Shown here piece after piece: positions 3,190 through 64,000 of a DNA stretch of 64,000 bases; positions within the stretch are counted from its first letter, which is position 1, and every line of letters starts with the position of its first letter. Made by a program: the position numbers and the translations under genes. The notes below the pieces were generated by a model that was not told the origin of the DNA, ran no database searches, and saw nothing but the letters and a program-made list of their open reading frames with translations. This stretch comes from Owenia fusiformis (Eukaryota > Annelida > Polychaeta > Sabellida > Oweniidae), in NCBI GenBank assembly GCA_903813345.2, contig CAIIXF020000006.1, positions 17,552,348-17,616,347 of the forward strand, given 5' to 3'.

Positions 3190-3261
3190 GATTTTCAAAA
3201 AAGTGTTTTGAGCCAAGCTAATCTTTACCCCATAAAGAGGCCATCTTTTATCCTAAAAGTA

Positions 3262-3290
3262 ATATTGTTTATTGTTTATTGTTTCTTTTA
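3262..3290 (-). repeat. TTTATTG-type simple repeat, likely LINE 3' tail
   Basis: Three tandem copies of a TATTGTTTA-like 8-mer lie about 100 bp beyond the stop codon of the reverse transcriptase ORF on the minus strand. Many non-LTR retrotransposons end in such a short tandem tail, so this probably marks the element's 3' end. Confidence 0.4.
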
Positions 3291-3384
3291 TTCCCGAAAA
3301 TTAATCGGAGCAACAAACATAATAATTACAATTATACAGTTACTTTATACAATAGAGAATAATCATGAAATGTAAGAATAATAT

Positions 3385-12750: not shown

Positions 12751-12855
12751 GGTGAGTTTGTTATGTGAAATGGTGAGTTTGTTATGTGAAATTGTGAGTT
12801 TGTTATGTGAAATGGTGAGTTTGTTTTGTGAAATGGTGAGTTTGTTATGTGAAAT
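12751..12855 (+). repeat. 21-bp minisatellite, five copies
   Basis: Five head-to-tail copies of a unit starting GGTGAGTTTGTTATGTGAAA with one or two substitutions each. The 21-bp period keeps a frame open, giving a repeated MVSLLCE-like peptide (12713-12901). There is no other sign that it is translated. Confidence 0.9.
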
Positions 12856-22100: not shown

Positions 22101-24286
22101 CTTGAATTGTATCACACAGTGTAAGGATGATTCTCCAACAACAAGGCTGAGAGAATGCTGGCTCCAAATGAAGCCATTACAACAGCAGTTCATGCACCAT
22201 TCTTCACTAGCATGATTCTCGAAGATGGCGAAAACAAAAACAAGTTTAGTTATTTGAGTCATCATATTACAAGGTCTTAATGCTATCATCCAATGAACGT
22301 CTTTTGATTGGACAATAATATGTCAAGAAATGTAGTTGTTATGACAAAAAATGAACCCATCTTGTTAAAGCCAGGGGATTACAAGAAACAAGGCAGCTTG
22401 TTCTCATTTAACTTCTGCCCACATTGCGTACAAATGATCTCTAATGGGGTGATGATATCATCCATTGTTGCATTGTGACATGACATTGGTCACCTTGGCT
22501 ACTAACCTAATAGTGTGAAGTCACCATTGTACTAACTAATGATGTCTAGTATTGCATTGGTGCCTTTAGCCTATTACTAATTCCATTCATGTGAGCAATC
22601 TTACAAGTACTTATTTTTTCGCGTCTTGCACTCCTTCATCTACAAGTGATCTAAGTTCTCATAAATAAGATAAAATACAAAAAAATCTGTTTTTAAACCA
22701 GTGGTAAAATTTACATTCTCCAAATTCTTGTATCCATGGGAACAGTTTGACTGGTGGTATTGATCAAATGATTTATATTAAAATGTTAATTGTGGGATGG
22801 GTTCGCGTGTGCAGAAGTAGATACTAGTAAACAGAATATAACAAAGACAAATAACTGCACAGAAGCACTAGAGCACGTGGCTGATCCATTTTACACTAAG
22901 CCTTCATAGGAAACTATGGTCCTGATATGTTGTGTTAAATCTCTTCATCCTGGTTCACATAGAGTTTATGAAAAACAAAGTGTTATGTTAATGAGTGTTA
23001 ACAAGTGCTTTATTTTTGTTGAATTGGAAAAAACAAATCTTATAGAAAAGTTATTTATTCATAATAAGTGGGTTATCATGTTGACACTGTCTATATTAGA
23101 CCAAATCCCCTCAACAGTATTTCGTAATAACTCTAGCATGTTAAGTGGAAATTTATTAACTTGTTTTCTGTTTACTGTAAATACGTTATTGCAACATATA
23201 TATTGAACTACTGTACAATTAACATTAGTTGGAGTGAGGAAGTGGATAGTTGACTCAGACTTGATACACGATCTCAATCACACAACGATGTCAAGTAATG
23301 ACAAGCACTTCCAGGAATTACATACACATCATCATTTGAACAAAATGTTATATTAGCGTTTATTTCTATTGGAATTTAACAAAATTATAATTTAAATTTT
23401 AAAAATATTTTACACTTTTTCATTTTTGGATTTTAATTCCAAGTTAAATTGAGGAATATTTTATAGGATGATTCATTTTGAATACGGTCGGATCATCTGG
23501 GAATAATAACTTAATTTTTCTCATTGTGTGTTTTCAGATATGTTTCAATACGAGCAACAGCAGCAATGCTCCCCCGAGCCAGTACAACATGGCCGCCAGA
23601 ATATCCATCTTTGGCAATTCCTTAAAGAATTATTGCTTCAGCCTCAACACTATGGCAACGCTATCAGATGGGTAGACAGAAGCAAAGGTAATTGCATTTT
23701 CAAAATTCTAACTTAAACTTTATCGTACCATACGTGATATTTTTAAGGTTTATAACTAAAGTTGTAAACTTTGCATGTAGGATTTGCAAGATATAAAGAT
23801 GATTCAAATTTCCCAGGTGTATAGTATTGTAGCAATAGGCTTAGTGTATGTGTGTACTTAGAACCTGTTGATGATTCACAATTCTCTTGATGTGGCAAAG
23901 GCACTTCGGTACTATAATAATACACATTCAGTGAACCCAGAAACGTCAATACACTGATTCAAGTACAAATACTTCTTCTCGATAAACTTAACATATCACA
24001 AAAACCAAAGATCTAAAATGTGCCCAACTAACTCAAATACACACAGCATTGTCTTCTCCACTTGGCTATTGATGTTCAACAACGTTTTATTGTATTTACA
24101 GGTATCTTTAAAATTGAGGATTCCGCACGAGTTGCAAGACTATGGGGCAAGAGAAAAAACCGTCCAGCCATGAATTACGATAAATTAAGCCGTTCCATTC
24201 GACAATACTACAGAAAAGGTATCATTAAGAAGACCGAACAATCCAAGAGACTAGTCTACCAATTCTGCCACCCTTATCTGTTATAG
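16124..24286 (+). CDS. Ets4: Ets4/SPDEF-type ETS transcription factor, six coding exons
   Basis: Nuclear DNA-binding regulator of the PDEF subfamily. Exons: 16124-16174, 20700-21276, 21406-21603, 21760-21969, 23538-23687, 24102-24286. All junctions are GT-AG, phases agree, and the sum is 1371 nt (456 residues plus stop). The start rests on the 17-codon first exon ([11 protein letters not shown]...), whose phase-0 donor ATG|GTAAGC matches the phase-0 acceptor at 20700. Residues 18-190 are low-complexity, rich in Ser, Pro and Gln, with a SUMO consensus IKQE at 175-178. The PNT/SAM domain spans about 190-276 ([16 protein letters not shown], then [20 protein letters not shown]). A Ser/Pro linker follows. 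The ETS domain at 368-455 has [32 protein letters not shown] and the recognition helix SIRQYYRKG. The [11 protein letters not shown] block with C-terminal LVYQFCHP is diagnostic of SPDEF over other ETS proteins. It is longer than human SPDEF (335). Confidence 0.93.
16175..20699 (+). other. Intron 1 of Ets4 (4.5 kb)
   Basis: AT-rich, with no exon I can support. It contains one hairpin (16934-17021). The open frames at 17831-18151 (minus) and 18969-19217 (plus) have no recognised domain. Large first introns often hold enhancers, but none can be identified by eye. Confidence 0.6.
16934..17021. repeat. Small hairpin / MITE-like inverted repeat
   Basis: AAGGGTGTTGT (16934-16944) is matched perfectly by ACAACACCCTT (17011-17021). 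Further inward, TAACCCCTAA faces TTAGGGGG. The length of 88 bp and GC-rich stem stand out from the surrounding AT-rich intron. Confidence 0.65.
21218..21603 (+). other. PNT (pointed/SAM) domain region of Ets4
   Basis: The domain is encoded across a short intron (21277-21405, 129 bp). The sequence before the junction ([16 protein letters not shown]) supplies the first helix and DPYQW opens the next exon. A PNT domain with this intron position is normal for the SPDEF/ESE group and serves protein-protein contacts. Confidence 0.85.
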
Positions 24287-39000: not shown

Positions 39001-42000
39001 TGAAAGGAACGCTCAGAGGTTTCTCAGGAAGGCCACTCGCTTGACCAAGCAAGTCTCTCAACTGTAATCCTTTATTTCTCTCCTCATCTCGAAATCGGAA
39101 CTTCGGCAACAGATCTTTGACCAAGGAGTTCCACGATATCCTTAATTGAGTTGAATAAACTGATAAATTTTGCATATTCTTGAAAAAAATGTCATCCCAA
39201 TGGCTTGTACTCCCATAAATGTGAGGATATTTTGTCTTCATTATCCGATTGACGGATTTGATTCAAATTTTATAGGTCAATGTCTTATGGGAGTATAGGA
39301 CCTCTGCTCGAGAATGAATTTTCGATATGGCCGCTCAATTCAAAATGGCCGCCATTTTTTCTTAAAAATGTAACTTTTGATAACTCAAATTCTCGGATTT
39401 GGTTCAAATTGTATATGCAATATCAGACTAAGGAACTTTGCTCAAGAAGAGATTTTAAGATGGCCCTTGATTTTCAAAATAACCGCCATTTAAAAAAAAC
39501 GTAATAGTTGATAACTCAAATACCAGTAAACAGATTTGGGTCAACTTTTAAATGCTGATGCCGAATGATATAGTAGCTCTGTTCAAGTGCCACCATTTTT
39601 CGTAAAGAATGTTATCTTTGAAACTCAAATATCAGTTAATGGATTTGGGTCAAATATTGTATGGTGGTGCCAAAGGACACAGTAGCTCTGTTCGAGGAAG
39701 AATTTTCAAGATGGTAGCTGAATTTCAAAATGGCCGTCATTTTTGTAAAAAAATACCTTTGATATCTCAAATGCCATTGAACGGATTTGACTCAATTTTT
39801 TATGATGGTGCCAAAGGACACAGTAGCCCTGTTCGAGAAAGAATTTTCAAGATGGTGGCTGAATTTCAAAATGGCCGCCACTTTTTATAAAAAATACCTT
39901 TAGAAATGCCATTAGACAGATCTGACTCAATTTTTTATGATAATGCCAAGGGACATAGTAGCTCTGTTCTAGATAATATTTTTAAGATGGGGGCTGAAAT
40001 TCAAAATGGCTGTCACTTTTCGTAAAGAAATCCGTAATCTTTGATAACTCAAATACCAGTGAACAGATTTGGTTCAATTTTGTATATGCTGATGCCTATG
40101 CACAGTTGCTCTGTTGACAAAATATTTTTCAAGATGGTTGCTGAATTTCAAAATGGTTGCCATTTTTATAAAAGAACGTACATTTAATCTTTGATAACTC
40201 AAATGCCAATTGATGGACTTGGTTCAAATTTTATATGTAGATGCCAAAGAACAAAGGAGCTCAAGAAGGCAGCTGAATTTCAAAATGGCATAAAAACATA
40301 ATCTTTGATAACTGAAATACCAGTGGATGGTTTTGGTTCAAATATTGTATGCTGATACAGTGCATGTAATGTTCTGAAATTTTCAAGATGGCCACTAATT
40401 ATCAAAACATGTTTTGTTCGGTGGGGTTTGCTACTCCTCGGAATTGCTGTTTTTCTAGTTATTTTTGAATTTATCTTCAAAATATCTTCACACCTAAAAG
40501 GCCTTTGACAAGACTAGTCTCGGCTTGGAGAACGAAGTTTATCAGTCGAGGCTTGTCTTTTTTTAATCGGCCTACTTTACGTTATGCCTACTTCGAACAC
40601 TCTTGATATTTTGACATATTGTAGATTTAAATGTCCTCTTTTGAATATTCATAATTTAATTTGGGTGTTTTTCTATATTTTTCATGAAAAAAGTTATTAG
40701 CCCCCTAGACCGCTGTTCTCCAAACCGAGACTTATATCTTTGCGGAAACGAATAATTTTCGACGTACATGATATGGAGATGAAAATCCTAACAACGTCGT
40801 CAGTTTCTTTGCCCTTTTGTTGCAGGCCCGTAGCCAGGGGGGAGGGTTCGGGGGGTTAGGGTGAACCCCCCCCCCCCTTCAAATTTCTTTCAAAATCATG
40901 CAGTTTTTCACCATTCTTACTATTTTTTGAGTGATTTTTGGCCAAATTTACCAAAGTGAACCCCCCCCTAGAATTTTTTGGAAAAGTGAACCCCCCCCCC
41001 CCCCCCTTGGAAAATTCTGGCTACGGGCCTGTCTTGTCTTCTCTGACGACAATACTTTTTCAATAAAATGAGCGATCGGTAAGTCAAAACGATGCTTTAT
41101 TACGGCAACAATTCAGTCTTATATTTGACTCTTGAAAACTCATCATAATTTCTTTCATTTTTGGTTTTCGTAACGAACGAAATGAATTTTGAGGATGTTC
41201 GCACGTCGCATTGTAAGAGGAAGTAGACATGAAAACTAAGCATTGCAAAACGAAATCGCCTGTCAAAATAATACCAACATTTATTGCTTATGCCTAAGTC
41301 TAAAGTATCGCGTTGCCGCGGCTTTCGAAAGCCCATGGTATATATACATGTTGTAATTTTTAAAATCTAAAATAATTTATGTACTCATCTTAAAGGTGGA
41401 AAAGAAAACTTAAAGAAACATAAACATAAACCATTCATGGTAAGTTAGCATTAACGAAGGCTGAAGATCTGAATAATCTTTTAAAACTTTTTAGAAACCT
41501 TCAGACTGTATCGCGACCCATGTACGTGGGTACGACATGTACGAGGTACGTGGTTTTTATACAAAGCCTGGTCGATACGAAAATCGTAAAAGGTGAGTAA
41601 ACTGTGATCATTTTCATACAGATTCTTCGTGTGTTCTGCGTGTATCAAATCCCAAGCCTTTTGAGAGAAAAGTGTCAATATAATAAAAATAAAATAAAAA
41701 AAACAATAACCTCACATTTATGGGAGTACAATGGCTGGGCCTTAAAATATTATTTACTTTATTTTTCTTATATTATTGTTTTAACATGGTACTCACCCCG
41801 TCTCTTCTATCAATTGTGCGAATAGTGTTACAACGAACGACTTGCTGACAGAATATATAAAGTGTATAGTCTCCCCGTCATCGGGTACCTGGTTCTCCAA
41901 ATCCGCATAGCCGTAGCCCGTCGTATAAAGAGGCTCGTTGTCTTGAACAATCGCAAGGTTCATCCCAATCTTCCCTCTGCATTGGAGGATCTCATTTATG

Positions 42001-42089
42001 AATGTGTCTAATTTTGCTTTCATCTGTGGCCAGTCAGTCTGGGCCTGAGATAAGCCCAGTATAAAAACAAGCAGCATTAAAGTCTGCAT
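36024..42089 (-). CDS. Secreted serine beta-lactamase-like protein, copy 1 (five exons)
   Basis: Member of the beta-lactamase/PBP4*-like serine hydrolase fold (PF00144); substrate unknown. Exons in coding order: 41797-42089, 38979-39140, 38408-38686, 36951-37213, 36024-36700. All are GT-AG and in phase, 557 residues. A signal peptide (MLLVFILGLSQAQ) precedes the catalytic domain. SVSK (80-83) is the SxxK nucleophile-lysine motif, YVD (169-171) stands where YxN is usual, and HGG (339-341) matches the third K/HxG motif. ISWNSLVKDLLPKFRFRD and LRDLLGQASGLP are family landmarks. After ~430 comes a Cys-containing beta domain (VETYTGSYVN) like DUF3471. The C-terminal ~18 residues are hydrophobic, suggesting a GPI signal or membrane anchor. 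Intron 1 is swollen to 2.66 kb by satellite, and intron 3 holds a mariner element. The ancestral ATG (42102-42104) is now followed by a stop, so translation must start at 42089. Confidence 0.88.
37223..38251. mobile_element. Mariner-type element in intron 3 of lactamase copy 1
   Basis: Inverted ends CGAGGGTTGTCC(A/C)AGAAGTAATG flanked by TA on both sides (37221-37222, 38252-38253). This TIR style and the TA target duplication are typical of mariner. The paralogous intron in copy 2 (about 45150-45185) shows the empty site. The 1029-bp length is close to a full element, but the transposase frame is largely lost. Confidence 0.88.
37648..37863 (+). pseudogene. Mariner transposase N-terminal HTH remnant
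   Basis: The frame (MKRLYKEYIPDMTTIMRWQ then KRFKRDDWTLDDNSKQGRQ) resembles the paired-type helix-turn-helix of mariner transposases, in which a RWF..F..G...DD...GRP block is conserved. It ends after about 65 codons. The DDE/D catalytic region is not recognisable downstream. Confidence 0.6.
39243..40420 (+). repeat. YY1-like satellite array (~8 units of 135-140 bp)
   Basis: Units share TTGATAACTCAAAT, GGATTTGGTTCAAATTTTAT, GTAGCTCTGTTC, TTTTCAAGATGGC and TTTCAAAATGGCCGCCATTT. It lies in intron 1 of lactamase copy 1 and is absent from copy 2, whose intron 1 is 127 bp. The same family occurs in reverse orientation in a POMT1 intron (62560-63240). AAAATGGCCGCC and AAGATGGC resemble YY1 binding sites. 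Confidence 0.85.
40823..41031. mobile_element. CAGGCCCGTAGCC MITE, second copy
   Basis: Same ends and G/C runs as 35522-35738. The flanking 5-mers TGTTG and TCTTG match at four of five positions, consistent with a decayed target duplication. Located in intron 1 of lactamase copy 1. Confidence 0.85.
41032..41796. other. Remaining intron 1 sequence of lactamase copy 1
   Basis: Absent from copy 2, so probably inserted. 41171-41193 (AACGAACGAAATGAATTTTGA) matches 7373-7395 in the loop of the 7.1 kb foldback, suggesting a transposon relic. No exon is seen. Confidence 0.4.
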
Positions 42090-42156
42090 GTTCTACATAT
42101 GCATTGTGGTGTTTGGTCGGTGTGTAAGACGAATCAATTCATTTCAAACAGAGACA

Positions 42157-42164
42157 ATTTGCAT
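42157..42164 (-). promoter_or_regulatory. Conserved octamer ATGCAAAT upstream of lactamase copy 1
   Basis: A perfect POU/octamer site about 70 bp before the start codon, inside a block (ATGCAAATTGTCTC) that is identical at 48483-48490 in copy 2. Retention in both paralogues is partly expected from recent duplication. Confidence 0.35.
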
Positions 42165-42224
42165 ACAAGTATTGAAGGTGCAGGGCAAATATAAATAACT
42201 TGACATACTGAAGTTCTAGTTATT

Positions 42225-43607
42225 ATTCATGACATGAATCTGGCGACTCGAAGTAGGTTAAAGAATTTAAATACTAAGTTTTTGTAACCTTGTTGAAAAG
42301 TGACGTACACGTCGTCAAATAATGGTGATGGCACTTAAATTCTCCTTCAAATGTTAATATTAGTTCGTATAATATAATTGTTTACGGACTTTTATATCAA
42401 AGGTAATGTGATGAGTGTGTGCAAAGGATGCAGTGCAATCAAATATTCGTTTAGCCAAATATATTTGACGAACATAAAACATTTTTTACAAAAGTAGGCC
42501 AAGTTATATGTCAGAAATAGGTCAGACAGTATAGTAAACGTTTCACTAGTCAGTATAACCACTTTTTATTTCAACAATGCACTTGTTCTCAGATACAAGA
42601 TTGCTAACCAACGCAATGAATCTATCAAATTGAAGCTCTACAACAGTAATCTTAGTCAATGTACAATCGCAATTATTAGAAGGTAATCGCAAGGTCAATG
42701 TCATATATACAAATATAATTATTTCATGAAAATATATTCAAAAATTGTACACTTAGTTAACTACCATCCCTCAAAAAAATACCCCGATAGTTTTCATAAC
42801 CAAATCAGTGGATTTTTCATGATTAAATCATAATTTTATTTCCTTTCAGAAAATCAATTCAGACATCCATCGTTTGAAGAAACATGAAAGATAACGTAGT
42901 ACATCTTACTAGTGTAAATATGTGCCATACTCGAGACAACTCATTGGAAGAGTTACATGTAGAACACTCTGGTAGCCCAGTACAGTTTGGATACGACACC
43001 CGAGGGCAGACGCTCACTTCAGAAATAAATACAAATAGAATGTGACGGGTCAGAATAAGTGAGTAGCTCCCATAATTCATTTAAATCACGCCCAGCAGTA
43101 TGTGATGTCCAATCAAATTGCAGGATATGATCACGTGAACAATCATGAGCACTTGCTCTCTCAGTGCAGCGTATGCGCAAAGTAAAATTTGAAATTGTGG
43201 AGATGGCGTTTATTATTTCAGTTAACATCAATTCAATATCATCATCTCAAAACTACGGTAATACTACTATTGAATTCGATCCAAACATGTAGAGAATACT
43301 CATAAAACAACCGCGAACATTTTGAGATCCATTTCAATGGTGGCAAATGGGGCCTGTAAAATTGGTTATCGAACGTGCCAACTGCCAATACCAAAGGTCA
43401 TATTTTGGAAATCTCTCCCTTTGGTGACGGGTGTAGAACTAAGACCTTGACACATCTCAAGTATAGCTACTACTCTAGCATTACTTCTGATGATTTAATG
43501 TAGACACGTCGACATGGCAGACATGGGACAATGCTTAAATAGACCTACATTTGAATTTGTTCTTGTGAAGTTTTAAGGCCCTTCAAATAATATTTAACTG
43601 GCTTTTA
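42225..43607. other. 5' flank of lactamase copy 1 / junction of duplicated units
   Basis: It aligns in patches with the 5' flank of copy 2 (48541-51060), for example GACATACTGAAGTTCTAGTTATTAT and AGACCT(T/C)GACACA. Contains no supported exon. Confidence 0.5.
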
Positions 43608-43786
43608 TAGGCACAATTTATGAACACAAAGAATGCTTTAAAAATCAATCTGCTTATCCTACTTATACGAAGTGATCAGATCAAAACCATATACGATATT
43701 ATATGTAGATAAGATAAAAGACGAGACACGGATAAAAAATATATGGTGTCGTACCAGCGATGAGTTTATTTCTGGAAGTTATACAA

Positions 43787-43792
43787 TTTATT
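43787..43792 (-). terminator. Poly(A) signal of lactamase-like copy 2
   Basis: AATAAA on the minus strand, 61 bp past the stop codon at 43853. A second hexamer lies at about 43764. Confidence 0.5.
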
Positions 43793-43852
43793 CTGTACTT
43801 GATGATTTACTCTTATTTCAAAATATTACGTGTTAAAGGGCTTAATCTTTTT

Positions 43853-46800
43853 TTAAATTATTGTTGTAGCAGTCAGAGCAAAAGCCATCATAGAATACAG
43901 ACAAAGCCGAGAAAAGTTGGTATCACTTGCCAACGATACATCACATTTTATCTCTTCTGGTTTCATTCTGGAATTCTGGAATTCAACATCATCTATTCTT
44001 AGACTTGAAAAATCATCGACCAATCCAGTTTCTGATAAAATGGTGAAGACAACACGTTTAGCGCATCCGTAACATTCTCCTGTAGATTCAGCTACAAAAG
44101 CATGGGGAACTCCACTCGGGTAAAGATGGTACTCCTCACATCCTTTCGTCATAACTAATGTAGCTCTGTTTGGATCAACTTTTATTTTGGCTTCGTCATC
44201 AAGATTTGCATAGCTTCCAGAGTAGGTTTCGACAGGGGAGGTTGTGTTTTTGGTCTTATCGATGCTTGTATCAGGGTGTATTTCAAAACGTCCGCAATAT
44301 CCACCTTCCTTTGCAGGAAGAGTGTAATTACACGCGTAACTGATGTTGAAGATAGGAGTGTTACCACGGAGGATGTCTGCGATGTAAAAGTGAATGAACG
44401 ACATAGTTGCGTGCGAATCAACTCCATGGGGTCCAGTAAGGGAAGTATAAATGCCAAGATTCCATTGCTTGAACAGTGTCATTATAGTATCGTGTGTTCC
44501 ATAACCGCCGTGTTGTATAAAGTCGCTCTCTGAAATGTAGTGAGTTATGAGTGAAAAGGATTGTACGGTCATGAATGAGAAGTTCTACGGAATGAATACA
44601 ACAGATGAAAATAAACACCAAAATTGTAAGTATATTCATTATCACAAGGAAACAAACCATCAACATTGCAATTAAATAGTTCTATCACTTCTAGTAAGCA
44701 TCGTGAGATATCACAGCCTCCTTTCCGTTTCCTTTTAGAATCATTCTTTGCAAACAGAGATTGTCTGAGTACCAAAATGGAGTTGAAGTACGTCCATATA
44801 TACTAGTACTCCGGTTTTATGTTATTTTAGGAACTTGTTTAGCATATTTCAAGTAAATGCACCAAAAACGCTTTTGCTGTTTTCACTCACCTCTGAAATT
44901 CCCCATCCAAAATCCCATACCATAAGCATACACTCTCCATGTTTCATCAATATCATCCAGACCATCAATCTCAAGGAAGGATGTGTAAAAATTGATGACT
45001 TGGTTCGGTTTGTACATTTCCCTCAATATGTTAGGATCAACAATTGAATTGAGGGATCCGTCATTTCTATACGCACCAAGGTGGAACTTCATGTACTCTG
45101 CCATATCTTCTGCTGTTGACATGGCCCCCATTGCTGCCGCCACTAAAGTTTCACTGAAATTACATGTATATATATATAGTTAATTAACACGATAATAAAC
45201 TGAGAGATTTTGCAACTCACTTATACATGTTATAGTATGTTTATTATTCCCGTATAATAATTATATTGATCACTTCTTGTGTATTTTGAATTTTTTGTTA
45301 GGTAGTAAAGACCGAAACTTGCGATTCAAAGGAGAAATACCGACTCCAGGACTGACGCTAGCTTTTTGTTGAAGAATATTGATGTTGCATTCTGGGTGAC
45401 ATCCTTCTTGATCGTCTATACCATAAGTTATTGAATGATTTGAAGTGCAAACGGGATATATTGCGCTTGAGAAATTCTGTATTATCACGAGACGAAGTCG
45501 AGTGCCAATACAGAATATCAAAAGCACAATATATCCTGTATTGCTTTTCAAATCATTCTATAATGTTTTATCGTGTGATCTTATTTGGCCAATATATCTT
45601 AATTAGGAGATAATCCTAAGGAAATATTCGTACTTGCTCTGAGATTGTCCCCTCTGTACCAATATTTGCTGTATTGTTACGGAGATGAACAACCCTGTAC
45701 CAACAAAAGGTGAGGGGACAATCCCAGTAACAATACAGATTGGTACAGCACAAGACCTGGACAATCCGATGGCTTCAATTTATTGATCATAATGCCGTGG
45801 TCACATTTGCTCCGATTTTTACTATGGCGCCCGGCTGATTGAGTATTTTGTTCAAAATTGAATACAATTTTGAACAAAACACTCAATCGGCCGGGCGCCG
45901 GCCGATGGATCGGAGCAAATGTGACCCGGGCATAAGATAAGTAAGAATGAACGTACAGAGCTGCGCAGTAAATGATGACGTAATCAAACACTTGAAACAC
46001 TTGAGTTATACGTAATACCGGATTAAACCACACTGATGCGTGGGTCACATTTTTCCGATTCATCGGCCGGCGCCCGGCCGATTGAGTATATTGTTCACAA
46101 TTGTATTCAGTTTTGAACAGAATACTCAATCGGCAGGGCGCCGGCCGATGGATCTGAGCAAACGTGGCCCAGGCATTAGGTAGCAACAGAATAGGATGAA
46201 CTGTGTTTCATATTTAAGAATAACCAGCTATAACAAAGAGGGTTGCATTATTCTTCTATTGTTTTTTAAGAATGTACACTTGTCTTGGCAAGCTATCCAA
46301 AACCAATGTGGCACAAAAGACGATTGATTGCCACATGTTGTACACTAAAGCTAAACTTATTATACTATATATATTAGTAAAGACAAATGAAACAAACTTA
46401 AAACTCATCCCCTGTTAAATGCAGTGCATCAAAGCTGAACTAATTACGCCTGCTCACTTCTAAATACACTTACCTCATAGTCAATACGCAAGAAATCAAT
46501 TTTTTTCTAAAATTGAATTATGGACCACTTACCAGTCAGTGCACAGTGTGTGGTTTAAGTTAGATAAACAATTCGTCTTGGGTCTACGCCCGTTGACCAT
46601 TATTTTTCCTAATGACCAAATCTCATAGTTTATCCATTACATAATAAACATGCTATTTCACGGACCTGTCTTTAAGTCCATGGCTATTTTAAGTGAGTTG
46701 CGAAATCTCTCTGTTTCAAATATATGGGTGTAAGAATTAAGAGTATTGTATAGCCGTTGGGATGTATTGACATTGAAAGGATCCGAACAATACGTTAATA

Positions 46801-48428
46801 AACACATATTAAACAGTATCGATTAAAATTTAAATTGCTTACGTGACTTCACCTTCAGTACCAGGTGAATCGCTGACCACAACCTCTCCGTTAACTAATC
46901 GATAACCATACGCAAACTTGCCAAGGGACTCATTATAACGATGAGCGAGGGATGGAAATGTCGAGTTCATCTTCAGTGGGGTTAAGATTCGTTCATGCAT
47001 CAGTTGCGAGAAGGATTTGTTTGTCAGATGTTCAAGTATCGCACCAGCAAGGTAATAATTTTTATCGACGTAGCAGAAACTCTGTCGCATCCCCATAACC
47101 GGTTCAGTGCATTTGACCACGCTAAATAAATCAAAGCCATTATAGATGGAGTGCCTGTGGACTGGTCGGAAATGATTTCATCATTAAACGATCCAATGAA
47201 TGTTCAATGAATACTCTCTCAAGTTATGTGATTATAGACTAGTGGTCAGTATCAAGCGAAGGTAACGGCCGTAACCTTCGCATCTAAGATGGCGGACGGT
47301 AATCGTCAATTTTCATCGAATTAAACTACTACAGTTGACATAATGATTTGATATTTGAACCAAATCAGGCTTATATGACATGTAAACTCTGGAATATGAT
47401 ATTTTGTTCATACATTGTGCCTGGTCGTCACAGTTCAAAGATATTTTCCACCGCTTTATGCAGCATCACTGCATATCAGTTATCTTATCACCAAAATCCC
47501 AGTTACCTTTCCTGAGCGATGGAAGATATCGTTGAACTGCGGTGCGTACGCATATGGTATATGAAAAAATGATCATACTCTAGAGTTTTCATGTCATATA
47601 TGCCCGATATATTTCAAATATCAAATCATTACGTCAACTATAACGTAGTTTAATTCGACGAAAAATAACTTTAATGCGAAGGTTACGGCCGTTACCTTCG
47701 CTTGATACTGACCAGCGAGCTCTGACATCTTTTTATGAACACTGTTTCTTTCATCCTAAGCCAATACACGTTATGTTCCTATTTTAAGTAACATTTAGAA
47801 ATTATATATTTATTTTGATATATTTATATAAAATTCTTACTTTACGAACTCTGCAACTGAATTGTAAGGCCCGCCCAGTCTCTCTGGAATGCCACTCGCC
47901 TGACCAAGCAAGTCTCTCAACTGCATTCCTTTATTTCTCTCCTCATCTCGAAATCGGAAGTCCGGCAACAAATCTGTGATCAAGGAGTCCCACGATATCC
48001 TTAATTGAATTGAATAAACTGATACATTTTGCATATTCTTGAAATAAACGTTATCCCCCATTTCTGGGCATTTAAATGTTAGTTAACTTATTTTTTCAAA
48101 CATAACATATTTATCATCATACTTACTCCGTCTCTTCTATCACTGTGGCGAATAATGTTACAACAAACGACTTGCTGATGGAATATATAAAGTGAATAGT
48201 TTCGCCATCATCGGGTACCATGTTGTCCAAATCCGCATAGCCGTAGCCCGTCGTATAAAGAGGTTCGTTGTCCTGCACAATCGCAAGGTTCATCCCAATT
48301 TTTCCTCTGCATTCGAGGATCTCATTTATGAATGTGTCTATTTTTGGTTTCATCTCTGGCCAGTCAGTCTGGGCTTGGGAGAACCCAAGTATCAAAACGA
48401 GCAGCAGTAAAGTCTGGATGATCGCCAT
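43853..48428 (-). CDS. Secreted serine beta-lactamase-like protein, copy 2 (five exons)
   Basis: Tandem paralogue of copy 1. Exons in coding order: 48127-48428, 47841-47999, 46843-47121, 44891-45153, 43853-44529. All are GT-AG, in phase, 559 residues. The start at 48428 gives a clean signal peptide (MAIIQTLLLLVLILGFSQAQ). An ATG 33 nt further upstream would place a charged stretch before it. SISK (83-86), YVD (171-173) and HGG (341-343) are conserved, including the Asp that replaces the usual Asn of the second motif. The C-terminal domain and hydrophobic tail match copy 1 apart from scattered substitutions, such as the end ATTII for ATTIF. Intron 1 is only 127 bp. Introns 2 and 3 hold a foldback and two MITEs not found in copy 1. 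Both copies look intact, so both may be expressed. Substrate unknown. Confidence 0.88.
45433..45557. repeat. Hairpin element in intron 3 of lactamase copy 2
   Basis: AATGATTTGAA.TGCAA...GGATATATTG pairs with CAATATATCC...TTGC.TTTCAAATCATT around a centre near 45493. A MITE-like palindrome of about 125 bp. Confidence 0.7.
45793..45932. mobile_element. Palindromic MITE, copy 1
   Basis: Ends TGCC(G/C)(T/G)GGTCACATTTG in inverted orientation, GCGCCCGGC / GCCGGGCGC inside, and a central hairpin TTGTTCAAAATTG / CAATTTTGAACAA. TAA flanks both sides, compatible with the 3-bp TWA target of PIF/Harbinger elements. 140 bp. Confidence 0.8.
46037..46175. mobile_element. Palindromic MITE, copy 2
   Basis: Same family as 45793-45932, about 100 bp downstream in intron 3 of lactamase copy 2. 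139 bp. The flanks TGA and TTA are less informative. The 169-codon frame across both copies (45677-46186, minus) is a by-product of their GC-rich palindromes. Confidence 0.8.
47247..47716. mobile_element. Foldback element in intron 2 of lactamase copy 2
   Basis: The terminal ~41 bp are perfect inverted repeats (TGGTCAGTATCAAGCGAAGG ... CCTTCGCTTGATACTGACCA). Each terminus contains a smaller palindrome around ACGGCCGT (GCGAAGGTAACGGCCGT). Imperfect pairing continues inward for about 150 bp. The homologous intron in copy 1 (292 bp) lacks it. Confidence 0.85.
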
Positions 48429-48482
48429 TGTGCTGTTGGGGTGGCGTACGAGACGAAACAATTACTCTCAAACTGAGAGACA

Positions 48483-51479: not shown

Positions 51480-52230
51480 GCATCGCGCATATTTATCGCG
51501 TAAATCTTTGCATTTTGTCGGTAAAATGAACAATTACACTGTTACGCCGTGATGTACAGTATCTGACGTCGTATCTATAAGTTCCTAGAAGACGTTGCAC
51601 ATTTTCGTTCTTTACACATCGAGGCAACGTAAACATGAAACATCTATTGATGGTATAAAAAGAACGTTGTTGTAACGTGTCCGTAAAGTTCGTTAGTGTG
51701 GAAAACATAATAAACAGGAACGTTTGATTTTTTACTACATTGGTCCATATGTGACGTAACTCAAACGTTAAAATTCAACGTTGTCAAAACAGGCTTTTAA
51801 TATCAAAATATTTATTGGTGGAAAAAACATGACAAAAACTTTGTGTTCTCACTAAGTCGGTTCATTTCCGACGTATTGTTAGCGTTAAAATTTAACGTTG
51901 TCGAAACGTTTTTTCGATTTGAAATAACATCAAAACGTGACGTCAATAATGACGTTCATGGACCATACTGATCTGACGTTATTTAATAAATATTGAGCAA
52001 AACGTCGATGGATGGTTGAATTTCAACATTGTGGAAATGGCTTCAAAATATGTGTGAGTTAAGGAAACGTTACAAAGACGTCAATATGTTCTCACTAAAT
52101 CGGTTCATTACCGACGTTATTTTAACGTTAAAAGTTAACGTTGTCAAAACGTTCTTACGATGTGAAATAACTTTAAAACGTGACGTCGAAAATAACGTAC
52201 ATGTATCGTCCAGATCCAACGTTATAAATA
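51480..52230 (+). repeat. AACGTT/TGACGTCA-rich repeat block
   Basis: 51848-51975 and 52087-52215 are direct repeats (TTCTCACTAA(G/A)TCGGTTCATT, CCGACGT, TTAACGTTGTC, AAACGTGACGTC). A third, more diverged copy covers about 51700-51848. AACGTT occurs many times, and a perfect CRE palindrome TGACGTCA is at 51938-51945. No coding potential. Confidence 0.75.
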
Positions 52231-53579
52231 AAAAATCCTAACCCTGCTAGGAACGTTAAGTACCCGGTCACCCGGTTTTTTACACAAACCCTCTGTAAAC
52301 CTTTTTCCAATTTTGGCATAGGCCATATCTTGTTTTAAAGATCTTGTCTTAAATTGTTGTACCTTTACACAGTCTAGTAGTCCATGGGTTATTGAATCAA
52401 CAGCATTGTCATTGCAAAATTTACAGTATTGTGAATCTTTGATTTTCATTATATATAACATTTTATTGAAATAACTTGCTCTTTGTAGCAACCTATATTG
52501 AAAATATTGCAGTTTTGTGTCTTTTATTATATCCTTAAGTGATGTGTATATACTTTGCCAGTTGAAATCATTTTCATTGATGTGTAATTGTTTTGCCCAC
52601 TTCACTTGTGATTTTATTGCATTTTTTTGTTTAACTGTATTTTTTAGCAATATGTACGTATTGGTATTCTTCATGAATTGTAGCCTTTCTACGAGATAAC
52701 TTGGTGTAGTACATTGGTCGTTCTGTCTCATAGCCCTTTTCCAAATGTCTGGAATGCATGCTAATATTTTGTACGGTACCTTTTGTACCCTTTGCATTCG
52801 TTTGACTTCACTTTTTAAAAGAGAGCTTCGTCTAGTTTAACTAGACTCTGCACGCAGGGTAATATTTTGCGGTGTTCCAGAAACGTTACTCCATTTAGAC
52901 CATAGCATGTTCTTAGTGTATCGAAAGGTATGATGGTTTTGTTATTATCACGGACTTTAAGACTTTCAGGTCCGTGTTATTATATAGTTGATCTATTTTC
53001 CAAATTCCCTTTCTTTTCCATTCTTCATTGTTTAAGAGTTTGCCCCTGCTGGTAATGTTAGAGTTATTCCAGATAAGTTCATGTCCTATTTCATTGTGTT
53101 TGATGTCCTTTCCCTCAATGAAGTTTATGGACGTCCATATTCTTAAAGCCTCTTGTATAGATTTAATCGTCAGGTTGTTCAGTTGTGCCTTTTCTATTTC
53201 TCTGCAGTTCCATTTCCAAATGTTTTGCCCGTTTTGTTTTCTGAGGTGGTGTCTCCATAGATTTGCCCATTTGGAATTCATTTCCTCGTTATTAATGCTT
53301 TTTATCCACTTTAATTTCAAGTTTCTAGCAAATGCTCTTACGTCAATCATATTTAATCCTCCTCCTTTAACCTCTCTCATTAATGTTTTCCTTGCTATCT
53401 TCTCTGACTTGTTGTTCCAGATGAATGCGTAAAATATATCTTCTATTTTCTTCATTATTTCTCCTTTTGGCATCGGTAGTACTGTCATCATATACGTTAG
53501 TTGACTTATGAGTTGGGCCTTTATTATTATGGCTTTTCCTATTACAGATGAAACATTGGGCTGGTATCACCGTCCTCAA
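52222..53579 (-). mobile_element. L1/Tx1-like LINE ORF2 C-terminal fragment
   Basis: Two main frames of one protein interrupted by frameshifts and stops. 52913-53491 has the post-catalytic region (IEDIFYAFIWNN, REVKGGGLNMIDVRAFARNL). 52222-52797 has the terminal zf-RVT block (FQYRLLQRASYFNKMLY, then CKFCNDNAVDSITHGLLDC). 53367-53579 is the same protein in a further shifted frame. The reverse transcriptase catalytic region and endonuclease are missing, consistent with 5' truncation. Intervening codons 52800-52913 still read like LINE protein (RTCYGLNGVTFLEH). Confidence 0.8.
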
Positions 53580-57300: not shown

Positions 57301-60300
57301 TGTGAGGCTACAGCCACCATAGAGCAAATATGACTGAGACTTAACATTGACCATAGCTCAACTATGAATCACATGAAAAAACATATGAAAACATGAAAAA
57401 TGGTGGCATACCATTGTTAATGACTAAAAAGCAGTCATCCTCAAAACATTGATTTATTGATTTATAAACTTAACAGCACATAAAAGGTAATTTAACTTCG
57501 AGAGTATGAATGTTGAGTTCAAAATCTGCAAATATTTTTTAGGTAATGCCTGATTTTCCCAAGTAAGGAAAATTGAATGAATTTCATGGAAATACCCAGT
57601 CAATGTAGTATGACATATGATACTGGCGTAACTTGCGAATGCCTGCCAGTATCTAGTCCTGATATAAAGTCAACCCTCCCATACTATCTCACCAAAGGTG
57701 AGGTAGATGGGGTAGCATTGAAGGGATTTTGAGGCTTGTAAGATTGGCTATTTTATCTGCTTACATCTTGTATATCTATGCTCCTCTACATTCCAGATAG
57801 TGAGGTCCTGGTGAGTGTCCCTATCTGCAGCTACCTCATACTGGTTGAAGCCCCATTCTGGCAGCTGACGACCAGTTAACTGAAACACAGATCAACATAT
57901 TTATTTATTATTCTCAATTTCCTGTGGTATTCACATGTATGATTTAACTCATCTTGAGTGCAGCTGTTGTATTGAAATGCATATGATTTAACACATCTTG
58001 AGTGCAGCTGTGGTATTGACATGTATGAGTTAACTCACCTTGGGTGCAGCTGTGGTATTGACATGCATATGAGTTAACTCACCTTGAGTGCAGCTGTGGT
58101 ATTGACATGTATGAGTTAACTCACCTTGAGTGCAGCTGTGGTATTGACATGCATATTAGTTAACTCCCCTTGAGTGCAGCTGTGGTATTGACATGTATGA
58201 GTTAACTCCCCTTGAGTGCAGCTGTAGTTTTGACATGCATATGAGTTAACTCACCTTGAGTGCAGCTGTGGTATTGACGTGTATGAGTTAACTCACCTTG
58301 AGTACAGCTGTGGTATTGACATGCATATGAGTTTACTCACCTTGAGTGCAGCTGTGGTATTGACATGCATATGAGTTAACTCCCCTTGAGTGCAGCTGTG
58401 GTATTGACATGCATATGAGTTAACTCCCCTTGAGTGCAGCTGTGGTATTGACATGTATGATTTAACTCATCTTGAGTGCAGCTGTTGTATTGAAATGCAT
58501 ATGAGTTAACTCACCTTGAGTGCAGCTGTTGTATTGACATGTATAAGCCTAACATGTGACTTGATTGTATGCCACACCTCTCCTTCAGTGTTTGCATTAA
58601 CAATCTCAACTCTCCAGAGATTCTGTGCAGGGGTAGATATGTTGTAGTCTATATAGCAGCTAACCTCTTGACACTGGGGAGTCAAAGGTGCTGCCACATC
58701 ATGACTGCAGAAAATAGTCATAGAGTTAGAATAATTTTCACGAAGTACGCAGACCTGACTGTTTTGCTCATTTTGGTTTGTTCACCCTTTTTTCAATTGT
58801 GATAGAAAATTATGCTCCTTTTTAGTGATGCTGCAGTTGCAAAGAAAACTGGACTCGACTACTGTAGATTATGAAAAATTGAGCAAGACAATAAAAAAGT
58901 CTTTTGATGTGTTTATTGTTTAAAAATGATTAAAGGAAATTGCATGAATTTTTTGACAAAACAGTTAATTAATTATTCTAATTAACACAAAGATCTCTCA
59001 GATCATATTGTTGACATTTATTTTACATAAACTGCTCCATTTCGCTTATTTAATAATTCCTACATCTACATTTATTGTAATTATGTTCACTGACTATAAT
59101 GGCTTAAAACAGCCTTCAGAAAGAAGTAATCATTGACACCGGAGTGGAAATGATTATTCGAGGCCCTCATTGCAACAATAATGAGACTATATGACTATTT
59201 ACTGTACCTTCCTCTAAGACATAGTTACCTATTTAGGCCCCTACTGGACATGCCATGAACTAACTGTACAATGTCTCCATCTTGTACAGGTTCCCTTGGC
59301 TCATCCACTACCAGTGAGTTCCTACAATAAAAACATAGCATTATTAATAAGTAAGCCTACATAAATTACATAAAACTTTAGCTGAGTTACCCCTGACATA
59401 GTTATCTGCCCTACGAAATCATCAGTGTCTGGATTGTTCCATGGTACATAGACTATTGTTTTATTTCTGTGAAAAATTTCGTTTCTTGCTGGATCATCAT
59501 ATTGCAACATTTTGTGCCATCGAGTGGTATCTATCTAAATATTTCAAACCTGCTTGGATGCTTTACAATCCACCAGTTATTGACATCTTTAAAAGTGTAA
59601 CATGTCACTTGTTGTTGATGACTGCTCCCCCTATTGTCAGAGTAGCGAACTGGATAGACATGGTTGTGGGAATGAATCCAACATGGCTTCCCGTGGGTAC
59701 TGCGTAGGGTCACTTGGGAACCATAGGAGATCTCTAGGGGCTGTCCCTTTGTAATGGCTGCTAGTCCTCCCTACATCAAATGTACAGCAAGATTATAGGA
59801 TGTGACACATGATATTTACTTCACTTATAACATTTTTTGAACTGGTATATTGTTAGGGTGGTATTTTGAATTTGAGGCTCATTGAGACTTTGAAACGTAA
59901 GAATCACGATCTAAACATGAATGTGTACTGTGCATCAAATATCATATTCTGAGTAACTGTTCAAAAATGAATATCACATAAATAATGTAAATTATACAAA
60001 ATATTGTTTCAAAATTAGCAATTAAAGATTTAAGGAAGAATTTCCAATTTTACACAAAGTCAAATGAAGTCTGTATTATGATTTAGCTCTTTATATTATC
60101 TGTTTAATACCATCATGATATATCTATCCATACAACTCTATAAGTCATACATAAATGAAGCATTATGTCATCTTCATATGATACAGCATCAAATAACATG
60201 GCTTTCATATGCTGCTCTTACAGGTAGGTTTCATCGTTGAAATATAATATAGAGGTACCTCTAAACTAGCTTGAAATGCACTTGTCATAATATCGTCATG

Positions 60301-63300
60301 TGGGCCTGCCTTCGTTAGAATCCCAAGATGGAGGCCAAATACAGTCATATACAGAAGACATGGTAGCATTATTAAGCATGCAGCTCTTGCACTACACAGC
60401 TTCAGCAGATCTTTCTAGAAAAGTAATTTGTTAATGTGTGTTACATTCAATTCAGGAAAGAACTACACACAAAGCATTAACATTCAAATGTCACCATTTT
60501 TTTAATTTTTTTTATTAAGTTATTCATTTGTACAAAGAATACAATACAAAAATACAGTGTGAGTGGCTGTGCTTTTAGCATTATTAGCCACGTTCTACAA
60601 TTACAATATACAATGTATTCAATCAATACTATTGATTAAAATAAATGAGATACAATAAGATAAAAATTGTTTTGTGGAGGATGTCACCATCTGCCATTTG
60701 TTACAGATGCTGAACTCATGTATATCAGATCATTATTTGGTGTGTTGGGGATATTTTCCAAATCTATATTCTATATCCTACCTCAGTGAGTGACTTGTCA
60801 GACACCAGGCTCCAGTTATCTCTAAGCACAACACCAAGAGCCAGAAGTCCAGTGAATACTCCAATATACTTCACACTGAAATATTAAATGTATGTACGAG
60901 GGGTGATCATTAAGTAATGGACATTTTATACACAGCCGCATTTAACACATCAATTGCTTTGACCTTTATGAACTTTATGAAGTGATTATGAACCCTTGAA
61001 ATTTCAAGATAATATGTAATTTTAGTATAAATAATTAAAATTACACCAATAGTCTAAGACTAATAAATGAGTTTGAAAAATACATGAAAAGACACGATTT
61101 TCAATAACTTTTATTCCTTTAAGTGGGTTGGGCAAAAAACCATTTCCTGTAATACACTATAATCATTATAAAAATCAGGATGATTTACCTGGATAAAGGA
61201 TGAAGATGACCCAAAAATTCATCTACATTTTTGGAACTTTCTCAATCATGGTGGAATATTTTCTTTTGTACATAGGGTGTAAATGGGACAAACAATGATA
61301 TAGCTACATTCTATCTATGACAAATATTTAATTAAATCATGTTTTCTGTCAAAGCATATTTACCTCATTGTGGCAGCTATAGAGATTCCTAATAAGGCGA
61401 GCCAAGTCATAGATGAGATTCTGAGTTCTCTGGAATAACAATACAAAATAAAAATAACATTTGAATTCCTTGGAATAATGGCGCATTGTAGTGAATCAAC
61501 ACCTCCTGATTGAAACTGGATTATAAAGAAAATAATGTAATATTTGGTTTTTATACTTTCAAGACAAATTAACTGTTTACCAGATAAATGTTAATTTTCA
61601 AAATCTCAAAGAAACCATCACCAAAATATGCTAACATTAGGTGTTACACTACATAGAGGCAATTTCATACAGAAGTAAGAGGAGTATGGGATTAGATGGG
61701 GTGTTCACTAGAGAGAGGTGTTCACTAATACATGTTTAACTGGCACTGTATAAAAATGTCTACTTCACAAACCTTTGATTCTGTTTCCTGAACTTCAAGA
61801 GACAGAGTATGGAGATTGATATGAAGAATACAAGGATTCCTTCCATGAGGACAAATCTTGACTGAGTAAGCATGGCATTGTCTGGAAAATAAAGATACAT
61901 CTATTCATTTTGTTATCAATTTCATTACTTGTATGCTCCTTCATCGTCATGTAATGTACATATAAACTTCATAACTTTTCATCAGTGTATTCTGAGCTGA
62001 ATCAATCATGGCTTTTTTAATCAAACATGGCCATTAACATTACTGGGCAGTTCAAAAAGCACTGGCAGATCCAGGGGGGGGGGAGGGGGGCAAAATCTTT
62101 TTCATGACTCAAAATTGCCCCCCCCCCCCCCAGCCCTCTTTAGCTTCTGGATCCGCCAGTGAAAAGGATATATTTGATCATGGCAAACTAACCAAATATG
62201 ATGAGGAAGGCAGCCAAAGATGCTGCATATCTGGAGAGGCCCATCTCTACTATGATCTGGTATGTCACTGGGACAGTTAGACTGCCTAACATTGCAGGAA
62301 GAGCTCTCAAGTGCCAGATTGGGACATTTGACATATACTCTGAAAAGAATTAAGATTATGTATATAATGCTTGACTTAATATTGAATAGATGAAAAATCA
62401 CATTTTGTAAGAGTATCACAATGTAATACTAGAAAAACAGCAACTCCACAGAGTAGCAAATTCCACCGAACAAAACATGTTTTGCATAAATAGCAGCCAT
62501 ATAATATTTTGAGCCAAATCCATCCACTGGTATTTAAATTATTAAAGATTATGTTTTTATGAAACATGGTTGCGATTTTGAAATTCAGCTGTCATCTTTA
62601 GATTTCTTCTTTAGCAGAGGTCCTATGTCCCAAGGCATCAGCATATAGAATTTAATCCAAATCAGGTATTTGAGTTATCAATGATTACCATGGTGGCCAT
62701 TTTGAAATTCAGAGGCCATCTTGAAAATGTCTTCTTGAGCAGAACTTCTTTGTCTCTAGGCATCAGCATATATAATTTGAACCAAATCCATCAACTGGTA
62801 TTTGAGTTATCAAAGGTTACGTTCTTTTATAAAAAATGGCGGCCATTTTGAAATTTAGCTGCCATCTTAAAAATTCCTTCTCGAGCAGAGCTCCTATGTT
62901 CCTAGGCATCAGCATGTAAAATTTAAACCAAATCCATTCAATGGTATTTGAGTTATCAAAGTAATGTTGGAATATGGATTTTGGAATATGGCGGCCATCT
63001 TGAAAATGTCTTCTTGAGCAAGGCTCTTTCGTACCCAGGCAACAGCATATAAAATTTGAATCAAATCCATTCACTAGTATTGAAGTTATCAAAGATCATA
63101 TTTTTTCGGAAAAATGGCCGCCATTTTGAATTTAGTGGCCATTTTGAAAATTCCTTCTTGAGCGGAGGTCCTACACCCATTAGACATTTAAAGCCTATAA
63201 AATTTGAGTGAAATCCGTCAACCGGTATTTGAGTTATTGCCCGGACACACTTCGTTCGGTGGAATTAAGCCATTTATCAGAAAACATTTTAGGTGAAGCA

Positions 63301-64000
63301 GAGTTGTGCAAAAAGTCAATGTAACAGGAAAAGCAAATGTGAAAAGAAAAGGCATTCTAGGAAAATGACAAGATTAAATCATATATTCCAATTACTCACT
63401 AAAATGTTTTAGAAACGATGTATGCCAATGTTTTTAAAGTTTCATTGAATCTGAATACAATAATGATATTATATTTGTATAGATCACATTTATATACATC
63501 CTATAGTAAAATTAGCTTATATTCTAATACACAAACCTTGTCCTATTTTCTCAAACTTAAAGAGTCCATCAAAACCTGCTAGATAAGCGCAGCCAGCAAT
63601 AAGCAATTTGCCAAGTGGAGGATGGACATCAAAGAAAAATACTCTGTTCATATACATCCCAGCAAAACGATTAAAATGTAGTTCATCAAACCTATAAAAT
63701 AGTTTGAATCCAAATTTTTAAAGTTCTTTATAACATCAGATTTTAAGATTCAACGATGCAATGTTGAATTGTTTTTTAAAAGAGGTAAAACATAACTATG
63801 TAAAATTCATGTTCCTTTTTGGATACAAAATACATTGTATCCTTTGCAAGGCCAATCCACAACAATGAATGGACATATATGCATTAAAAATCAATTAATA
63901 GAATCTAAAGAGAAAATAATTAACACCATCAACTTACACTACTGCTTTAGGATGCTCTATCATCCAGAATCTTGACACCAAAGCAACGATGAAAAGATTC
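54304..64000 (-). CDS. POMT1: Protein O-mannosyltransferase 1 (16 exons, 5' end outside window)
   Basis: Acts in the ER membrane with POMT2, moving mannose from dolichol-phosphate-mannose to Ser/Thr, as on dystroglycan. Exons in coding order: 63938-64000 (partial), 63537-63691, 62193-62339, 61773-61881, 61364-61429, 60782-60875, 60259-60414, 59550-59770, 59229-59321, 58515-58704, 57765-57879, 57051-57151, 56224-56340, 55671-55797, 54894-55068, 54304-54475. All are GT-AG in phase, giving 699 residues to the stop (human 747). The PMT domain begins in the first exons ([20 protein letters not shown] has the conserved DE pair; [11 protein letters not shown]). Three MIR motifs follow ([11 protein letters not shown] with [21 protein letters not shown] with [23 protein letters not shown]). 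Then come [21 protein letters not shown] and four C-terminal membrane helices, ending [18 protein letters not shown] and [10 protein letters not shown] favour POMT1 over POMT2. Confidence 0.95.
55499..55560 (+). repeat. Dispersed repeat, uninterrupted copy
   Basis: CATTAACATGCAAAATGTCAC...GCCATTTGTTACAGATGC is shared with 60475-60710. There the match is split by an insertion. Confidence 0.6.
57922..58541 (-). repeat. Minisatellite of an exon-intron boundary (14 copies) in POMT1
   Basis: A ~41-44 bp unit is repeated 14 times. Read on the minus strand, each unit holds the last codons of the exon ending at 58515 (encoding HVNTTAALK) followed by the donor region (CTCAAG|GTGAGTTAACTCAT). The copy at 58515 joins the full exon. 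In the other 13 the donor GT is kept in six (around 58038, 58084, 58124, 58253, 58297, 58340). It is lost by mutation in seven: AAG|AT in three and AAG|GG in four. Use of any downstream donor would read K-V-S-stop, ending POMT1 inside the third MIR motif. Confidence 0.92.
60498..60680 (-). mobile_element. Short retroposed insertion with 10-bp target duplication
   Basis: 183 bp flanked by perfect direct repeats ATGTCACCAT (60488-60497, 60681-60690). A T-rich run follows the left repeat, as a minus-strand poly(A) tail would. The related repeat at 55499-55560 shows the uninterrupted state. A SINE or truncated LINE in an intron of POMT1. Confidence 0.65.
60896..60935 (+). mobile_element. Single mariner-like terminus
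   Basis: TACGAGGGGTGATCATTAAG with TAATGGACATTTTATACA resembles a mariner TIR and the ends at 37223 and 38251. No matching right end is found before 61364, so this is a remnant. Confidence 0.5.
62060..62161. mobile_element. CACTGGCGGATCCAG MITE with G/C runs
   Basis: Inverted ends CACTGGCAGATCCAG / CTGGATCCGCCAGTG, a G run inside the left end and a C run inside the right. Flanked by a perfect 5-bp repeat AAAAG (62055-62059, 62162-62166). In a POMT1 intron. The architecture parallels the CAGGCCCGTAGCC family. Confidence 0.85.
62560..63240 (-). repeat. YY1-like satellite array, reverse orientation (~5 units)
   Basis: Same family as 39243-40420, reversed: GGCGGCCATTTTGAAATT, CATCTTGAAAATGTCTTCTTGAGC, GGCATCAGCATATA, AACCAAATCCAT and TTTGAGTTATCAAAG recur every ~110-140 bp. 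Located in the POMT1 intron between 62339 and 63537. Confidence 0.85.

Follow-up and report, generated by a model that had tools for sequence, protein, structure and literature searches.

Tandem copies of a 5′ splice site at a POMT1 exon of Owenia fusiformis: a probable mirage-type minisatellite, one of many minisatellites in the genome

Does a 5′ splice site (donor) that is repeated in tandem behind an exon regulate the gene that carries it, or is it a tolerated repeat? This question is raised by a window of 64,000 nucleotides from the annelid Owenia fusiformis (contig CAIIXF020000006.1, positions 17,552,348 to 17,616,347 of the forward strand), in which an exon of the protein mannosyltransferase gene POMT1, read on the minus strand, runs into a minisatellite whose units carry its donor. 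A first-pass annotation had proposed that the copies compete for the spliceosome, and that array length could tune productive POMT1 mRNA or that donor mutations in distal copies may have been favoured. Our analysis indicates that the array is probably a mirage-type minisatellite, i.e., one whose units span an exon-intron boundary, that the first donor is most likely the one spliced in nearly all cases, and that the array, one of many, is probably not a dedicated regulatory device.

Tandem Repeats Finder (TRF) described the array at 57922–58545 as 14.5 copies of a 44-bp period with 90% matches, and gave its top score to a period of 86, which is a 44 + 42 dimer and forms the higher-order unit. 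Donor-like sites were located by cutting the minus strand at each C[TC]CAAG. This yielded 14 sites separated by 13 intervals of 44 bp (eight) or 42 bp (five). The copy number of 14 and the start at 57922 were thus as first annotated, while the unit size of 41–44 bp narrowed to 42 and 44 bp only and the end moved from 58541 to 58545. Each unit comprises 27 nt of exon, the donor and intron sequence. The exon ends CTCAAG/GTGAGT (the slash marks the junction), and AAG/GTGAGT recurs in 7 of the 14 copies, after 58515 (the authentic donor), 58341, 58297, 58255, 58125, 58083 and 58039. As had been noted, the remaining copies read AT or GG, namely AAG/AT in three (58471, 57997 and 57953) and AAG/GG in four (58429, 58385, 58211 and 58169). 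The POMT1 array is not a product of chance, with 14 ordered, distinguishable copies. Copies 1–2 and 13–14 carry common variants which are absent from the inner copies, and inner copies 3–12 differ from one another at 0–5 of 44 columns (counting the 2-base difference in length); the edges of the array look old and its middle homogenised. Furthermore, the AT donors are confined to copies 2, 13 and 14 and go together with another change at +10, and the GG donors occur in two adjacent pairs, so that at least two inactivating changes took place and were later copied.

A profile search placed three PMT matches at 61742–63690, upstream of the array exon, one of them crossing a TAG codon. The array exon was missing from the matches of a genome-wide MIR search; once joined to the next exon, the peptide reached 28.5 bits for MIR, above the Pfam cut-off of 25.6, so that both the PMT and the MIR domain are found at the gene. 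The peptide obtained by joining the first donor to the next exon (58515 to 57879) was aligned over residues 1–100 of 102 with PMT2 (6zqp_A; E 1.5e-10); at E up to 0.1, ten further solved sequences of protein mannosyltransferases were matched besides PMT2. In the two alignments displayed, the K-L residue pair at the junction is free of gaps. Because the joined peptide is gap-free at this junction and its MIR score exceeds the cut-off, the exon end is considered ancestral, which bears out the claim that the units span the true boundary of a POMT1 exon. The choice of POMT1 over POMT2 follows the human sequence and is our assumption. The genome searched (G000, 498.26 Mb) consists of 525 contigs, of which C1–C12 measure 31.9–62.2 Mb (477 Mb in sum), C13 0.66 Mb, C14 0.19 Mb and the other 511 about 20 Mb together; further PMT/MIR matches mark a second locus at C8:38.22-38.24 Mb. 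The array at the exon-intron boundary of POMT1 is real and exact, and it is a mirage minisatellite by the testable features: boundary-spanning units, and splice signals within the repeats.

The copies were then compared as donors. Pairing with U1 was −10.7 kcal/mol for the authentic donor and for five decoys, and −12.3 kcal/mol for the decoy at 58341, while the AT and GG copies pair weakly (−1.3 to −6.5 kcal/mol). U1 pairing therefore cannot separate the authentic donor from the live decoys, in line with the original view of competing, identical donors. Among 14 POMT1 donors picked by eye, the amplified one is the joint best U1 match, together with one other. The frame beyond the authentic donor reads V-S-stop, as first described, so every distal donor choice, and likewise intron retention, would end it. 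Regulation via RNA structure was considered and dropped; the nine donor bases were predicted to be poorly accessible in all 14 copies, and the authentic donor did not stand out.

From these data we propose that the array arose when a segment of ~42–44 bp that bridged the 3′ end of the POMT1 exon and the donor underwent tandem amplification into the intron, which, judged from the length with a single unit, may have grown from ~73 nt to 635 nt. The gene has stayed intact, as the authentic donor and exon end survive in the 5′-most copy; when this copy is joined in silico to the acceptor at 57880, the conserved protein is restored. Most likely, the first donor is used nearly always. If any of the six live decoys were used, or the intron retained, V-S-stop would lead either to removal of the transcript, presumably by decay, or to a truncated protein. 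The most likely effect on POMT1 is a longer intron, perhaps with a small cost in mis-spliced transcripts, and the gene is probably not specially regulated.

Table 1. Coordinates of the POMT1 exons, intron and donor array in the window.
Feature	Position	Strand	Remarks
POMT1 exon, part of third MIR motif	58515..58704	-	190 nt; final 27-30 nt are the exonic share of the repeat unit
Next POMT1 exon	57765..57879	-	3′ end placed by eye
Intron	57880..58514	-	635 nt, nearly all array; 73 nt if one unit; final base 57880
Unique intron tail with acceptor TGTGTTTCAG	57880..57921	-	42 nt
Minisatellite with 14 donor copies; 42- and 44-bp units, 86-bp dimer as higher-order unit	57922..58545	-	TRF and donor cutting
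Authentic donor AAG/GTGAGT (-3 to +6)	58509..58517	-	U1 pairing -10.7 kcal/mol
First live decoy donor	58335..58343	-	174 nt beyond authentic donor; U1 pairing -12.3 kcal/mol
Other five live decoys and two GG copies (58211, 58169)	58033..58299	-	Donor cutting
Three dead copies beside authentic donor (AT 58471, GG 58429, GG 58385)	58379..58473	-	
Two dead copies closest to acceptor (AT 57997, 57953)	57947..57999	-	

The genome is rich in minisatellites and the POMT1 array is one of many. At six fixed positions (60 kb in total), 6 arrays with a period of 15–100 and at least 3 copies were counted, about 100 per Mb. Arrays of donors were found by patterns of three spaced donors, and 31 were fetched besides that of POMT1 (numbered loci with the prefix L): 12 from two donor searches (nine distinct arrays among the matches listed in one search, and three from the AAGGTGAGT x3 search), 12 with units of 30–37 bp (the remaining 12 of the 13 arrays of that search, in which all matches were counted) and seven from a further donor search, taken among the matches listed there. 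An array was regarded as exon-anchored when an open frame reached the donor and an acceptor-like AG or a start codon lay upstream, or when the open frame was long. Judged by eye, this held for 9 of 12, 7 of 12 and 6 of 7 arrays, respectively, i.e., 22 of the 31 fetched and, with POMT1, 23 of 32. When all matches of a search were taken, 8 of 8 loci were anchored for AAGGTGAGT x3 (POMT1 included, the two clusters at C1:22.44 Mb being one locus) and 8 of 13 distinct arrays for the 30–37 bp units. The nine unanchored arrays are L004, L007, L008, L016, L020, L024, L025, L026 and L028.

Family support, defined as a Pfam score above cut-off or a PDB match with E below 1e-5, was obtained for 11 of the 23 anchored exons. 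Besides POMT1, these encode a Rieske ferredoxin (L003), a Tudor domain (L006), a Reeler domain (L012), SMC4 (L017), CRIPT (L021), PP2A-B56 (L022), a NIF phosphatase (L029), INTS9 (L030), a MATE transporter (L033) and a matrix metalloproteinase (L034). Live decoys beyond the donor number 17 in SMC4, 48 in CRIPT, 6 in PP2A-B56 and 5 in INTS9, and the peptides still match well. As GT is kept in 328 of the 401 distal copies of the 23 anchored arrays, conserved genes carry many live-looking decoys. A stop is met before the first live decoy in 16 of these 23 arrays.

Some loci of this survey have particular layouts. The 72-bp donor array behind the matrix metalloproteinase exon (L034, C2:14993300-14997000) is in frame and stop-free for 123 codons past the authentic donor, so that splicing at one of the nearest distal donors would lengthen the protein by 24 residues per unit, while 2 of its 17 intervals are 79 bp and frame-shifting. 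At L009 (C2:27476500-27481000; 1916–3666 in donor orientation), arrays flank the exon on both sides, the upstream one built of repeats that carry an acceptor (TTTTTCAG/GATATGGCACAA) and the downstream one of repeats that carry a donor; repeats with acceptor-like sequence are also present at L013. In the window itself, a 21-bp array with five copies of GTGAGTTTGTTATGTGAAATG (12697–12855, plus strand) lies immediately downstream of a short ATG-initiated open frame, MNSEENVLYGGSKGGTLLG, as exon candidate, and may be a second donor array.

Several points weigh against the proposed reading. Splicing of POMT1 at its first donor is a prediction. Anchoring was judged by eye throughout, and 12 of the 23 anchored exons are without family support (no family above cut-off for L002, L005, L009, L010, L011, L013, L018, L019, L023, L027, L031 and L032; PDB searches with the L027 and L019 exons found nothing). 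In human IFI6 (6-16), repeat units act as donors and two downstream ones are used, according to the available excerpt of PMC4526556 (citing Turri 1995). POMT1 differs from IFI6 in that any distal donor use would bring a stop. In addition, the donor motif returned 13 distinct arrays and its reversed version 10 in the 30–37 bp unit range, and among these 10 control arrays, judged by eye from open frames, one clearly and one possibly abuts an exon.

No count excess of donor arrays is claimed from these 13 versus 10 arrays. Raw matches for the donor and reversed motifs were 362 vs 191, 58 vs 54, 562 vs 229 and 52 vs 71, counts that are inflated by long arrays. As far as examined, the evidence does not single out the donor as a seed for arrays. 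Because minisatellites are so dense, some hundreds of donor-overlapping arrays are expected by position alone, assuming 200,000 introns. The clear control case, L041 (C1:60946000-60948100), begins where a thrombospondin-like exon (recognised by eye; SVCSVTCGGGSRYRTRNC) ends, and boundary arrays are therefore not limited to the donor motif used. Of the other controls, L049 is the one that possibly abuts an exon, and L045 is perhaps a coding repeat.

Among the alternatives, the one which survives best, though we consider it unlikely, is that the distal donors of POMT1 were inactivated by selection, since the three copies beside the authentic donor and the two closest to the acceptor are all dead. 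Dead distal copies make up 7 of 13 in POMT1 compared with 66 of 388 in the other 22 anchored arrays (Fisher p = 0.003), and the POMT1 share is the largest. With 6 of 13 copies live, the chance that all five edge copies are dead is 0.016 in a test picked post hoc. However, the dead copies fall into two mutational states only, AT (with its change at +10) and GG; they look like copied blocks, and cannot be seven independent events. Moreover, the edge copies (1–2 and 13–14) are alike, as array edges would be without selection. Nor does the class as a whole help this explanation. Because three intact donors were required to find an array, every donor column is biased toward retention in the same way. 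Off-consensus bases per column averaged 0.086 at GT and 0.053 at the five other strict donor columns over the 23 anchored arrays (array means; Wilcoxon p = 0.093). GT was the more changed in 13 arrays, the less changed in 7 and equal in 3, which points in the direction of selection, but counting distinct alleles gave no significant GT excess (p = 0.16). The p value was 0.027 for the first 17 arrays, rose to 0.073 when six were added and reached 0.093 after first donors were re-placed. The nine unanchored arrays showed no difference (0.099 vs 0.082, p = 0.55). General selection against decoys is not supported, and the suggestion that distal donor mutations have been favoured in general was not upheld; in the GT-retention check proposed at the outset, loss was high in POMT1 itself, with no significant excess of decay across the class.

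A length-dependent rheostat, in which more live decoys would yield more K-V-S-stop transcripts and copy number would set POMT1 output, is not supported and appears very unlikely. It would draw on the six decoys that match or beat the authentic donor in U1 pairing, on the stop that follows every distal choice, and on the repeat donors of human IFI6 in the excerpt cited above. On the other hand, the decoy-bearing SMC4, CRIPT, PP2A-B56 and INTS9 genes still give well-matched peptides, and the accessible parts of PMC3087553 and PMC3902484 report amphioxus mirages as apparently harmless to splicing. Length variation was not seen either: the array and the upstream stretch 58546–58720 each match a single place in the genome assembly, so no second haplotype was seen. 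An assembly artefact in copy number or order is barely credible; long near-identical repeats are prone to such errors, but the distinct variants run in an ordered pattern across 14 distinguishable copies, which disfavours simple collapse, and other exons bear similar arrays.

Other features of the window were recorded as well, the open stretches by eye. Those just behind POMT1 (52225–53566, minus strand) resemble a LINE reverse transcriptase in its C-terminal region. Two alike, beta-lactamase-like open stretches at 41796–48461 (minus strand) suggest tandem paralogues, and further open stretches at 20640–24283 (plus strand) resemble an ETS factor with a Pointed domain. Arrays with units of about 133–146 bp (and 279) and GGCCGCCATTTTGAAAT-like sequence are present at 39616–40173 and 62498–63173; similar units in L006, L013, L025 and L038 perhaps form a dispersed repeat family.

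The mirage-type reading of the POMT1 array finds its closest parallel in the amphioxus mirages (Adh3, TnC, the globins BflGb6/BflGb9 and PGBD5), which have boundary-spanning units in common with it. Its 42/44-bp unit falls inside the 10–72 bp given for amphioxus Adh3 in the available text of PMC3087553 and PMC3902484, and is shorter than the 150–160 bp of the globin mirages; the gene, too, is another one than in amphioxus. According to the same excerpts, reverse-transcription PCR (RT-PCR) suggests that amphioxus mirages do not interfere with splicing; PMC3087553, as far as available, also describes old edges and a homogenised middle in the globin mirages, as in the POMT1 array, and proposes intron gain from mirages. 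Intron gain by tandem AGGT duplication likewise shares an AG/GT within the duplicated segment, but the POMT1 array lengthens an existing intron and no new one was seen. In C. elegans, the minisatellite CeRep25B is linked to splicing and enriched in introns beside alternate exons; unlike POMT1, no boundary-spanning units are described for it in the accessible portion of PMC4039745, nor for earthworm intronic minisatellites in that of PMC12783039. Among the papers listed in our literature searches, none treated boundary-spanning minisatellites as a class outside amphioxus, apart from those citing IFI6, and a search on competing donors gave no paper.

Taken alone, the POMT1 array is a curiosity, a tolerated intron repeat. 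The newness lies mainly in the reach of the class outside amphioxus, which is more interesting than POMT1 itself; we see about an even chance that mirages are no cephalochordate oddity and that, in this genome, many conserved genes carry them at their donors, with as many as 48 intact-looking decoys following the authentic one. It is a long-standing question how one 5′ splice site is selected when its neighbours are identical, and it has been studied mostly with few constructs. In the natural arrays, 3 to 48 live donors follow the authentic one; found at conserved genes in a species with published RNA-seq, they would allow the question to be put to many genes together. If the first donor were always used, position (5′-most, exon definition) would decide, rather than strength or distance to the acceptor, and this genome would be a large natural experiment on the competition between identical 5′ splice sites.
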